Assembly (NCBI GenBank): GCA_947629235.1
Contig: CANRCX010000011.1
Location: forward strand, 1-45,473
Length of the DNA: 45,473 nt
Reading direction: 5' to 3'
Source: an uncultured Bacilli bacterium
GTDB lineage: Bacteria; Bacillota_I; Bacilli_A; RF39; UBA660
Shown: positions 22,295 to 29,234 of the stretch, in pieces
How positions within the stretch are numbered: position 1 is the stretch's first letter
Layout of the letters: every line of letters starts with the position of its first letter
Made by a program: the position numbers and the translations under genes
Notes under the pieces: generated by a model
What the model saw: only the letters and a program-made list of their open reading frames with translations
What the model was told of the DNA's origin: nothing
Database searches by the model: none

Positions 22295-22786
22295 ATGTAT
22301 TTTGATGAAAATAATAATTATTATGATATTCTAGCTAATGAAGAAAAATATGATATTGATGAATATAATACTACAAAAAATAGTATAAACAATTTTGATA
22401 TCAATATTGATAGTATTAATTTTGATAGAACAAGTAAACTTTATTCAACTGAAGAAGGGTTTAATAAAGGTAATATGTTTGAAAATTTATATTCTAAATA
22501 TAAAAATCATGTATATAAACTAAAAGTAAATAATATAAAAGATGAATTATTATATAAAATTCAAATGTATACTTTTGCTATGAAAGATTTAAATTTATAT
22601 TTAGACTTACATCCAGAAGATAAAGAAATGCTTTTAGAATATCAAAAATTAAGAAAAATGAAAGAAGAATTAAAAAGCAAATATGAAAGAGAATATGGAC
22701 CACTTTGTGCAAGTGAAGTAACTAGTACAACAAACTTTAATTGGATTAGTAATCCATGGCCATGGGATAAAGGGGGTAATTTATAA
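22295..22786 (+). CDS. CotJA/CotJB-like spore coat fusion protein
   Basis: The last ~90 residues of this 163-aa protein are CotJB: KDELLYKIQMYTFAMKDLNLYLDLHPED, YEREYGPL, and the Trp-rich end WISNPWPWDKG. Before them, KLYSTEEGFNKGNMFENLY (residues ~47-65) matches the C-terminal signature of CotJA (LYSPEEAL..GT.FPELY). In B. subtilis these are separate genes of the cotJABC operon, so this appears to be a fusion. The first ~45 residues are acidic, Asn/Asp/Tyr-rich and unlike CotJA. The proteins belong to the inner spore coat. The ATG at 22295 follows AAAGGGTGAT. It overlaps cotJC by one base (TAATG). The CotJB part is sure; the CotJA part is likely. Confidence 0.85.
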   Translation: MYFDENNNYYDILANEEKYDIDEYNTTKNSINNFDINIDSINFDRTSKLYSTEEGFNKGNMFENLYSKYKNHVYKLKVNNIKDELLYKIQMYTFAMKDLNLYLDLHPEDKEMLLEYQKLRKMKEELKSKYEREYGPLCASEVTSTTNFNWISNPWPWDKGGNL

Positions 22787-23343
22787 TGTTTAAATATGAA
22801 AAAATGTTAGAATATCCTATTAACGTAAAGAAAAAAGATTTAAAAATGGCAAAACTTCTTGTAGCTCAATTTGGAGGCCCTGATGGTGAACTTTCAGCAT
22901 CTTTAAGATATTTAACTCAAAGATTTAGTATGCCAGATGACAAAGGTAAAGCACTACTTAGTGATATTGGTACTGAAGAACTTGGGCATGTAGAAATGAT
23001 TTGTACTATGATTAATCAATTAATAAAGAATGCTACTGTTGATGAATTAAAAAAAGCTGGTTTAGATGCTTGGTATACTGAGCATAATAAAGGTTTATAT
23101 CCAATGGATGCTAATGGTGTTCCATATACTGCTGCTTATATTCAATCTACAGGTAATCCAATAGTAGATTTACAAGAAGATTTAGCTGCTGAAGAAAAAG
23201 CACGAGCAACTTATGAAAATTTAATGGATTTAACTGATGATGAAACGCTTCTAGCGCCACTTAGTTTTTTAAGGCAAAGAGAAGTTGTACATTATGCAAG
23301 ATTTAAAGAATTATTAGAATATTATAAAAGAAAAGGATATTAA
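22786..23343 (+). CDS. cotJC: CotJC, manganese-catalase-like spore coat protein
   Basis: The 185-aa protein is a ferritin-like four-helix dimanganese protein. It resembles non-haem manganese catalase and is found in the inner spore coat of spore formers. Likely metal ligands are Glu35 (GGPDGELSASL), Glu65 and His68 (GTEELGHVEM), the Glu cluster in EDLAAEEKARATYE, and Glu/His in FLRQREVVHYARF. The length is typical. The ATG shares a base with the upstream stop, so the two are translated together. Its last codons form one arm of a terminator shared with the convergent ABC permease. The presence of cotJ genes is the main evidence that the organism sporulates. Confidence 0.94.
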   Translation: MFKYEKMLEYPINVKKKDLKMAKLLVAQFGGPDGELSASLRYLTQRFSMPDDKGKALLSDIGTEELGHVEMICTMINQLIKNATVDELKKAGLDAWYTEHNKGLYPMDANGVPYTAAYIQSTGNPIVDLQEDLAAEEKARATYENLMDLTDDETLLAPLSFLRQREVVHYARFKELLEYYKRKGY

Positions 23344-26432: not shown

Positions 26433-27005
26433 ATGGATGAGATTGTAAATGATATCTATAATGAAGTAAGAAATAGATGTATGCTTCCTAGTAATGCTTA
26501 TGGTATTGGAGCATGGAATCATCATATAGAATTAGTTTATAAAATAGCCACTAGAATTTATAGTGAATATAATGCTGAATATTATATAGTAGCACTTGCA
26601 GCTTTACTTCACGATATAGCATCAGTTACTAATAAAGACTTTACAGAAGAACATCATATTATTGGAGCTCAAATAGCTGGTGATTTACTTCAAAAATATG
26701 ATATATCAAAAGATAAAATTGAGCTTATTAAAAAATGTATTTTAAATCACCGTGGAAGTAGATTAATGCAAAAAACTACAGGAGAAGAAATATGTATTGC
26801 TGATGCTGATGCAATGGCTCATTTTTATAGTATCCCTTCTCTTTTAAAAATGGCTTACGTAGATAAAAATATGTCTATTGATGATGGAAGTGATTTTATC
26901 TATAATAAATTAGAAAGAAGTTATAATAAATTATCAGATAAAGGAAAAATAATTACTACACCACAATATGAAGCAGCAAAATTAATATTAAAAAGAAATT
27001 TTTGA
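26433..27005 (+). CDS. HD-domain phosphohydrolase
   Basis: The 190-aa cytoplasmic protein has the metal-binding HD signature. A first His lies at ~30-31 (AWNHHIEL), with the His60-Asp61 pair in AALLHDIASV, HH at ~74-75, a His in LNHRGS and a late Asp in CIADADAMAH. HD proteins are phosphomonoesterases or phosphodiesterases acting on nucleotides. This one resembles the small stand-alone YedJ-like group. The substrate is unknown. A strong ACGGAGG precedes the ATG. It ends in TGA, the clearest use of TGA as stop in the window. It lies between the tRNA-Asn terminator and the small RNA promoter. Confidence 0.87.
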   Translation: MDEIVNDIYNEVRNRCMLPSNAYGIGAWNHHIELVYKIATRIYSEYNAEYYIVALAALLHDIASVTNKDFTEEHHIIGAQIAGDLLQKYDISKDKIELIKKCILNHRGSRLMQKTTGEEICIADADAMAHFYSIPSLLKMAYVDKNMSIDDGSDFIYNKLERSYNKLSDKGKIITTPQYEAAKLILKRNF

Positions 27006-27027: not shown

Positions 27028-27056
27028 TTGAAAAAATAATGAATATATGCTATTAT
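27028..27056 (+). promoter_or_regulatory. Extended -10 promoter of the small RNA
   Basis: TTGAAA (27028-27033), a 17-base spacer ending TGC, and TATTAT (27051-27056). No start codon with a ribosome site follows before the terminator at 27142-27180. Confidence 0.65.
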
Positions 27057-27062
27057 GTATAT

Positions 27063-27180
27063 ATCAAGTGAAACTTGAATAAAATAAAAAAGAGAAACAT
27101 TTATTGCAGTGAATGTCTTCTCCAAAAATAATTTGTTGATAGACACTCTATCTAGTTGTATAGAGTGTCCTTATTTTTTT
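27063..27180 (+). ncRNA. Unrecognised small RNA, about 118 bases
   Basis: A promoter and a strong terminator bracket this non-coding segment between two convergent genes. The predicted RNA has three stems. The first is TCAAGT-GAA-ACTTGA at 27064-27078. The second is a 12-bp hairpin (27092-27103 with 27110-27122, one bulged C, one G-U) with loop TTGCAG. The last is a terminator stem GACACTCTAT/ATAGAGTGTC (27142-27151 with 27160-27169), followed by C and then TTATTTTTTT. An unpaired A/U-rich stretch (27123-27141) lies between stems 2 and 3 and could pair with targets. It does not look like 6S, SRP, tmRNA or RNase P RNA. It cannot be an attenuator of feoB, which is on the other strand. Confidence 0.65.
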
Positions 27181-27263
27181 ATAGCAAGCACTAAAACAAT
27201 CAGTAATAATAAGATGATACAGATGTATCTTACACTATATAATGTATATTCAACTATATGATT

Positions 27264-29234
27264 TTATATAAATAAATTTAATATTATTAGAAACGATATT
27301 CCAGTTATTAATGGTATTATAAATGCATAAAGCATCCATTTACTTCCGACTTCACTTTTAATAGTAGCAAGTGTAGTAGCACAAGGATAATGCATTATTG
27401 AAAATAATATTGCACTAATTGCAGTACTAATAGTCCATCCATTATCAACAAGAATACTCTTAATACTTGTGTAATCTGCAATTAATGGAACATTACTACT
27501 TCTTAAATATCCCATTATTATTAAAGGAAGTACTATTTCATTAGCTGGAAGTCCTATAATAAATGCAAGTAATATTACACCATCTAATCCCATTAATTTA
27601 GAAAATGGTTCTAAAAAATTTGATAATATTGAATATACTGATATACCATTTACACTTGTATTATTTAAAATCCATATTATTATTCCAGATGGAATTGATA
27701 CTAAAATAGCTTTTTTTAAAATAGATAAAGATTTATTTATAAAACTAATTTTTAAAATTCTAGAAAGACTTACTTTTTTATAATCAGGAAGTTCTAATAC
27801 AAAAAATCCAGAAGTACCTTTTAATAATGTTTTAGAAAGAATAAATGATGTTAAGAATGAAATTAATATTGCAAACAATACAAATATTGTTAAATACATT
27901 GATACAAGTAATTTATTACTACTATTTACAAAAAACATAGATATAATTGCTATTATCATTGGAAATCTTCCATTGCAAGGAATAAAAGCATTAGTAAGTA
28001 TTGCAAGTAATTTATCTCTTTTACTATCTATTATTCTAGATCCTACTACTGCACAAGCATTACAACCAAATCCAGAACATATAGTTAATGCTTGTTTTCC
28101 ATGGCATCCAGCACATTTACAAATTCTATCAAAATTAAAAGCAATTCTAGGTAAAATACCTGCTTCTTCTGCATAAGTAAATAAGAAGAAAAATATAACA
28201 AGTGGAGGAAACATAACCGATACAATAAAACTAACTACTCTATATACTCCAAATAACAATGGCTCATATATAAATTCTGGTACACTAAATTTAATACACA
28301 AATTATATAATACATTTTCAATTTTAGTAACTAATAAACTTAATAAATCACTAGGATAATTAGCAAGTACAATAGTTATTAAAAATATTCCAAATACAAT
28401 TAAAAGCATAAGTATAATAGCAGTTATTTTATTTGTAAATAATTTATCTAAAAAACTAATTTTTTTCTCTTTTGTTCTATTAACTACTCTATTACTTATT
28501 TCTTTTGATAAATCATTTATTTTATAACATATATTATCTGAAATATATTCTGAATTAATATTCATTAAATATTCATTAATTTTATTTGTATTAATATCAA
28601 TATTAAACTTATCTTTGATACTTTTTACAATACTTTTATTTTTTTCAAGAAGGCTTAGTGCTATAAACTTATTTTTAAATTTAAAATCTATTAATTCTAG
28701 TACATCATCAACGTTATTCTCAATATCTAAATTATATAAAAAATTAAAATTACTTACTCTATCACTTTCAAGTGCATCTAATAAATCATTAATACCAATT
28801 TTATTTTTAGTAGAACATTTTATTACTTCTACACCTAATATATCACTTAGTAAATCACTATCTACACTAATACCTTTAGAATCAAGTTCATCTATCATAT
28901 TAAGACATACTATTACATTTTTATTTATTTCTAATATTTGTAATAATAAATTCATATTTCTTTCGATATTAGAACTATCCATTACATAAATAATTTTTTC
29001 ATATTCACTAAAAAGTAATGTATCTCTTGCTATTATTTCTTCTTCACTTAAACTAGATAATGAATATATACCAGGTAAATCAATTAAATTGAAATTTGTA
29101 CCCTTTATTTTAGCTTCTGCAAGATCAACTGTTTTACCTGTCCAATTACCTGTATGTTCATTTGAACTAGTAAGTATATTAAATATAGAAGATTTTCCTA
29201 CATTTGGATTTCCACATAATAATATATTACTCAT
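27264..29234 (-). CDS. feoB: FeoB, ferrous iron transporter
   Basis: The 656-aa protein imports Fe2+ through the cell membrane. The N-terminal GTPase has G1 GNPNVGKSS (residues ~8-16), G3 DLPG and G4 NMID. A four-helix linker region follows to residue ~260. The membrane part starts near 275 with Gate motifs in inverted repeats (SGFGCNACAVVGSR...IPCNGRFP; IIGLPANEIVLPLIIMG). Instead of the usual GFGCNVPA...C.ARLP it has a Cys-rich variant (CKCAGCHGKQAL, GCNACAV, CNGRFP), also seen in some clostridial FeoB. It is shorter than E. coli FeoB (773 aa). Its ATG overlaps the feoA stop, so the two are translated together. Metal choice other than iron is possible. Confidence 0.94.
   Translation of the reverse strand: MSNILLCGNPNVGKSSIFNILTSSNEHTGNWTGKTVDLAEAKIKGTNFNLIDLPGIYSLSSLSEEEIIARDTLLFSEYEKIIYVMDSSNIERNMNLLLQILEINKNVIVCLNMIDELDSKGISVDSDLLSDILGVEVIKCSTKNKIGINDLLDALESDRVSNFNFLYNLDIENNVDDVLELIDFKFKNKFIALSLLEKNKSIVKSIKDKFNIDINTNKINEYLMNINSEYISDNICYKINDLSKEISNRVVNRTKEKKISFLDKLFTNKITAIILMLLIVFGIFLITIVLANYPSDLLSLLVTKIENVLYNLCIKFSVPEFIYEPLLFGVYRVVSFIVSVMFPPLVIFFFLFTYAEEAGILPRIAFNFDRICKCAGCHGKQALTICSGFGCNACAVVGSRIIDSKRDKLLAILTNAFIPCNGRFPMIIAIISMFFVNSSNKLLVSMYLTIFVLFAILISFLTSFILSKTLLKGTSGFFVLELPDYKKVSLSRILKISFINKSLSILKKAILVSIPSGIIIWILNNTSVNGISVYSILSNFLEPFSKLMGLDGVILLAFIIGLPANEIVLPLIIMGYLRSSNVPLIADYTSIKSILVDNGWTISTAISAILFSIMHYPCATTLATIKSEVGSKWMLYAFIIPLITGISFLIILNLFI

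Follow-up and report, generated by a model that had tools for sequence, protein, structure and literature searches.

Between an HD-domain hydrolase gene and the convergently oriented feoB in the window (the whole 45,473-nucleotide stretch of DNA from an uncultured Bacilli bacterium that was analysed here) there lies a predicted small RNA with a promoter and terminator of its own (Table 1). Its promoter has a -35 element at 27028-27033 and a -10 element at 27051-27056 with a TG before it; a promoter scan of this AT-rich stretch is no proof alone because the matches occur at chance frequency (14 against 13.8 expected), and it is the conservation of the promoter in relatives that provides the proof. 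The terminator-like hairpin, which is followed by a T run, is one of three such sites in the scanned region, where 0.3 are expected. The minimum free energy structure of the 118-nt RNA (-28.8 kcal/mol, z = -4.63) contains three stem-loops, and none of 200 shuffled sequences folds as well. No Rfam family matches the RNA at the gathering threshold, nor at a permissive E-value, where the matches returned are chance ones (the best, PyrG_leader, scores 22 bits where 65 are required). A first-pass annotation had described an independent RNA convergent with feoB, no leader, and outside the common families, with an extended -10 promoter, three ordered stem-loops and a terminator ending in a T run, and all of these features stand. 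It had also seen no plausible coding sequence, which holds for the plus strand but overlooks the remnant of a hydrophobic ORF on the minus strand at 27171-27263.

Table 1. Features at the locus and the basis on which each was placed; toxin and antitoxin assignments are predictions.
Feature	Coordinates	Strand	Basis
HD-domain hydrolase gene	26433..27005	+	syntenic in L132, 90.5% identity
Antitoxin promoter: TTGAAA, 17-bp spacer, TATTAT with extended TG	27028..27056	+	aligned with intact syntenic L132 and other copies
Antitoxin RNA, about 118 nt	27063..27180	+	fold z -4.63; covariance model R1 match 27059-27182, 86.1 bits
Antitoxin 5' hairpin, CAAG-loop-CTTG	27065..27077	+	fold; covariation helix 1, 96.9% of cells paired
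Nearly invariant AATAAAATAAAAAA	27078..27091	.	invariant columns of alignment A1; direct sequence reading
Central stem-loop SL1	27092..27122	.	covariation helices 2 and 3; closing 5'-3' helix in toxin mRNA folds
Antitoxin terminator hairpin	27142..27169	+	terminator scan; covariation helix 4; 5'UTR-contact test
Toxin remnant, in-frame NHIVEYTLYSVRYICIILLLLIVLVLAIKK and stop, without start codon or SD	27171..27263	-	alignment with intact relatives
Deletion junction region, net loss of 152 bp compared with L132	27233..27250	.	alignment with L132, L133, L155
feoB	27264..29234	-	syntenic with L132, L133, L155; C-terminus 81-97% identity

The structure is strongly supported by covariation. In alignment A1, which holds the antitoxins of 40 relatives and in which four named helices were scored, 92.7% of cells are standard pairs and 22 of the 27 pairs have changes on both sides, including in the stem at 27092-27122, which lies within the covarying helices and where compensatory changes had been proposed as a check. 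None of 500 shuffles scores as high, although this figure, like the other shuffle and permutation figures given below, overstates independence because the modules are related to one another; sliding the partner by one to three columns reduces pairing to 28-41%, a control that favours the structure because this was partly derived from the same sequences, although the double changes are independent of that. A custom covariance model, R1, searched across related genomes as the annotation had also proposed, matched many copies, and the promoter, the three stem-loops and the terminator are kept across dozens of relatives. From these comparisons we take the predicted small RNA at 27063-27180 to be real.

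Comparison with these relatives also reveals what the RNA ordinarily faces. Of 143 antitoxin copies whose 5' part is intact, 90 are opposed by a convergent hydrophobic ORF of 24-30 amino acids with a strict Shine-Dalgarno (SD) sequence, as against 13 of 4000 random places; about a third of the antitoxin copies have no recognised toxin ORF. A scan of all loci yielded 103 modules (77 once dereplicated) with toxin types of about 24-30 amino acids, and the ORFs of three toxin groups evolve as coding sequences, with pN/pS values of 0.52, 0.34 and 0.29. A small hydrophobic ORF, a ribosome site and an antisense RNA together make up the layout of a type I toxin-antitoxin system, and these sequences indicate that the RNA is the antitoxin of a large, undescribed family of such systems in uncultured gut Bacilli; the convergent peptide we infer to be a membrane toxin. 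No toxin peptide matches a family in Pfam or NCBIfam, just as the RNA matches none in Rfam, and one could accordingly propose that the peptide has no toxic effect and is a small membrane protein regulated by the RNA for another purpose. We regard this as improbable, as what is seen here is typical of type I toxins: the antisense layout, the masking of the SD, an architecture of tight repression, many copies and frequent decay.

The window copy has no intact toxin gene, and only the antitoxin half is left. L132, in genome G011, has a complete module between the same two genes (the C-terminus of feoB is 94.7% identical there), with a toxin, VKKREYNIRLLRCICIILLLLIVLVLAIKK, that has a GTG start and an SD; in L133 and L155 the module adjoins feoB. 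The window aligns with these relatives up to about 27232 and resumes from about 27250, and what is missing relative to L132 comprises the toxin start, the SD, the 5'UTR, the promoter with its LexA-like box and half of the feoB terminator. The peptide left after the deletion reads RYICIILLLLIVLVLAIKK and stop, and its C-terminal 19 residues are those of the conserved toxin. Because this remnant has no start, the RNA would be an orphan antitoxin, and since the window copy can make no toxin, it has no target in cis. We thus consider it very probable that the RNA at 27063-27180 is a type I antitoxin whose toxin gene is truncated here, noting that the truncation is seen in a single contig and that the assembly is incomplete (91.7% complete, 64 contigs).

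The free-standing regulator envisaged by the first-pass annotation is therefore an antitoxin by origin, since its relatives, syntenic L132 included, face the SD-preceded hydrophobic ORF. A trans-acting small RNA with iron or stress targets and no relation to toxins would suit an RNA with its own promoter and terminator and no intact toxin beside it, but the same RNA faces such an ORF in 90 of 143 copies and at the syntenic locus, and we think this reading extremely unlikely. For iron control as such we found nothing in support, and feoB is a neighbour only. A different connection with feoB follows from the deletion itself: the inverted repeat AAAAATCATATA..TATATGATTTTT, the terminator that lies 3' of feoB in L132, has lost one half in the window, so that the feoB mRNA may read into the toxin remnant and end at SL1 and its U-tract, where the minus strand has its next terminator-like structure. 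Such a 3'UTR would therefore be fully complementary to the window RNA, which could act as an antisense regulator of feoB. This too is decidedly improbable, as it would be a by-product of a deletion in one genome, relatives that have the module beside feoB keep the feoB terminator intact, and the family adjoins many other genes.

The syntenic locus of genome G014 is broken in another way: the 5' part of the antitoxin is 100% identical over 127 bp and is followed by insertion-sequence-like DNA. The two antitoxin halves are on different contigs (L134, G014:C4:54939, and L155, G014:C66:206), and the antitoxin has apparently been interrupted.

In intact modules the toxin mRNA is predicted to be about 250 nt long, to span the whole antitoxin region and to end at SL1 plus a U-tract, so that the antitoxin is antisense to it from about the toxin stop codon, which lies at or within the antitoxin's own terminator, through the 3' end of the mRNA. 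The minus strand of SL1 is thus the stem of the toxin mRNA terminator, and the minus strand of AATAAAATAAAAAA is its U-tract; the first-pass annotation was right that this A/U-rich stretch is unpaired in the antitoxin, but its role as antisense of the U-tract had been missed. SL1 is also complementary to the toxin 5'UTR, which is itself similar to SL1 and able to pair with the 3' end of its own mRNA, and in the predicted fold of the L135 toxin mRNA (-78.5 kcal/mol, z -8.65) the 5' end is paired to the 3' end. A long 5'-3' closing helix is a feature of the full-length toxin mRNAs of hok/Sok and AapA1/IsoA1, and the one predicted here is similar in kind, with no homology. A local hairpin is predicted to mask the toxin SD, with a mean unpaired probability of 0.17 in 74 modules; the fold predictions give no support to hok-like activation through processing, since in them 3'-trimming leaves the SD closed (0.17 against 0.18).

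There is a second predicted contact, between the 5' arm of the antitoxin terminator and the toxin 5'UTR, which in the window RNA would involve GACACTC (complementary to GAGTGTC). The arm and the 5'UTR sequence co-vary between toxin types, the pairs being GCACTTAA/TTGAGTGC, TCACCTAA/TTGGGTGA, GCATCTGA/TCAGATGC and GTACC/GGTAC. Cognate antitoxins and toxin 5'UTRs match at a mean of 5.96 of 8 positions as against 4.71 when permuted, with a maximum of 5.47 in 10,000 permutations, although some single modules match weakly. We used this terminator-arm motif test of cognate pairing in place of RNAduplex on the whole 5'UTR, which is a weak test: the gain of cognate over other pairs is modest (-26.6 against -23.5 kcal/mol), and the cognate energies lie only about one standard deviation below shuffles.

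The promoters of the toxin genes suggest how they might be controlled. An exact [AG]AACN4GTT[TC] box is present in 30 of 77 toxin promoters, where 0.46 are expected from shuffles, and in none of the 77 antitoxin promoters; nine toxin promoters have a related sequence, GTTCGNTTGTTT, that is not palindromic. Within the host's taxonomic family, AAACN4GTTT or AAACN4GTTC occurs in most recA promoters, the few readable lexA promoters have a related box, and lexA itself is present in the host and nearly all its relatives. The simplest reading of these sequences is that the toxin promoters would be repressed by LexA and induced by DNA damage. With regard to position, the AAACN4GTTT palindrome abuts the -10 element of many toxin promoters (as in the intact modules L035, L122 and L028), while in others GTTCGNTTGTTT lies over the -35 element and resembles a direct repeat.

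We propose that in an intact module the two convergent promoters would make the antitoxin and the toxin mRNA, and that a constitutive antitoxin would pair with the mRNA at both its 3'UTR and its 5'UTR, keep the SD closed and block translation, with the long duplex exposed to cleavage by a double-strand RNase of the RNase III type. DNA damage would lift LexA, toxin transcription would outrun that of the antitoxin, and the toxin peptide would insert into the membrane. The RNA in the window would then either be drifting or perhaps retain the ability to neutralise a related toxin.

Candidates for such a toxin are encoded in the same genome. It has 10 DNA-level matches to the RNA and eight matches to the covariance model; one of the eight (C5:24997, 41.6 bits) is weak, resembles an ordinary hairpin and has different flanks, and we have not counted it, leaving at least seven copies of the antitoxin RNA. 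Three of these (C4:47907, C4:34948 and C48:5510) have intact convergent toxin ORFs, MKTKTFLIKILKLIIIILFLIIILIIVIKK, MRKSEKYLCSIIILLIIVILIILIK and MNKKDFLILSLVILIFLLVLLLFIVLI (two on C4 and one on C48), all hydrophobic, with a strong SD, and located just past the antitoxin terminator on the opposite strand; the other four of the seven strong copies (the window, C8:31501, C52 and C1) have none. Such a distribution would fit the idea that orphan antitoxins are kept as trans-acting antidotes, with the window RNA neutralising the intact C4:47907 toxin (MKTKTFLIKILK...) in the manner of an anti-addiction RNA. The promoter, stems and terminator in the window are indeed intact, and its predicted duplex with the 5'UTR of that toxin, at -27.9 kcal/mol, is nearly as stable as that of the toxin's own antitoxin (-28.5 kcal/mol) and more so than its duplexes with the other two (-16.6 and -22.7 kcal/mol), although duplex energies discriminate poorly among AT-rich RNAs. 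The leftover of a recent deletion would, however, look equally intact, and we regard a retained antidote function as rather unlikely, if worth bearing in mind.

Two other features of this genome are of note. A toxin-like ORF, MKKREFNIKVLRYICIILFLLIVLILAFNNQSSN, at C8:30607-30664 (L005) has no antitoxin adjoining it; the orphan copy at C8:31501 is about 0.9 kb away. Two antitoxin copies at contig ends (L003 on C52 and L008 on C48) adjoin the same sequence of about 60 bp, TGATAGCGTTTACAAAGTGTGGAGATTTG..., which is probably part of a longer repeat where the assembly broke.

The sample from the host's taxonomic family comprised 145 genomes, almost all of different genera; model R1 matches 102 of them, and the highest copy number in one genome is 23. 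Among 296 genomes sampled across the class there are 26 positives, 25 of them in the host's family and one in another, and the RNA family is thus nearly absent outside it. DNA-level matches were present in 16 of 40 relatives, and a search of GTDB species genomes with a 20-base pattern derived from the RNA gave more than 115 stretches, almost all in metagenome-assembled genomes of uncultured Bacilli/Tenericutes; matches to the pattern in Apilactobacillus and Flavobacterium have no model match and are attributed to chance, and four viral contigs with the pattern likewise have no model match. In 43 of 137 modules (among L016-L159) a tRNA gene is located no more than 300 nt upstream, in every case on the same strand as the antitoxin, as against 11 of 1000 random stretches, which suggests either that modules insert behind tRNA genes or that such sites offer a safe harbour. 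We rejected an origin as a mobile element, since plasmid and phage records contain no DNA-level match and no direct repeat of the tRNA end was found downstream of the tRNA-adjacent modules.

An unexplained small RNA is thereby placed in a large and unannotated toxin-antitoxin family, which marks out one family of uncultured Bacilli and can be found with R1. The family matters in that many of its toxins, judging from their promoters, appear poised to be turned on by DNA damage, and its many orphan antitoxins offer material for studying how a module comes to be disarmed and whether the RNA left behind retains any protective effect. More speculatively, genomes of about 1 Mb would carry up to two dozen LexA-controlled type I modules, with one antitoxin scaffold serving several types of toxin and with orphan antitoxins kept as a cross-acting antidote network that sets the threshold for SOS growth arrest, a scheme to which we assign a low probability.

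Among known systems the layout is closest to that of par/Fst of pAD1 (RNA I/RNA II) and related chromosomal modules, in which convergent promoters, a hydrophobic toxin of about 30 amino acids and antisense overlap at the terminator hairpins are combined with an SD-masking stem and with direct repeats in the DNA that give the antitoxin and the toxin 5'UTR a second stretch of complementarity (PMC7472228). The modules described here share the convergent promoters, the overlap at terminator hairpins, the second complementarity to the 5'UTR (with its mean match above the permutation maximum) and the SD-masking hairpin. They differ in that the antitoxin, at about 118 nt, has a 5' hairpin and two covarying stems, that the toxin mRNA ends at a separate stem, that many toxin promoters have a LexA-like box, and that neither the PXXXG(C) motif nor the charged C-terminal tail of Fst is present in the toxins. 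Membership of the Fst family was rejected on these toxin features, as PXXXG(C) is absent from alignment A2 and there is no Fst match in Pfam or NCBIfam.

In TxpA/RatA and BsrG/SR4 of Bacillus subtilis the antitoxin is likewise antisense to the 3' end of the toxin mRNA (PMC8167048), but the toxins here have only 24-30 amino acids and there is a second contact at the 5'UTR; the family search found no similarity of the TxpA or BsrG type, although proteins this short escape such searches. TisB/IstR-1 of Escherichia coli (and also DinQ/AgrB and SymE/SymR) combines LexA-type control of the toxin promoter with a hydrophobic toxin and an RNA antitoxin (PMC11264685, PMC6563280), as is predicted here, but IstR is not a convergent antisense RNA of the toxin 3'UTR, the bacterial group is a different one, and the box in our modules is a prediction. 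The family is not described in the open literature searched, which did not extend to subscription journals or to databases such as T1TAdb; that literature records no SOS-inducible type I toxin beyond the E. coli group, and these, if the predicted LexA control is true, would be the first. Elsewhere in the window, the ORF at 22786-23343 appears by eye to be CotJC-like (manganese catalase/spore coat type), which hints at spore genes in this small-genome relative of the Mollicutes.
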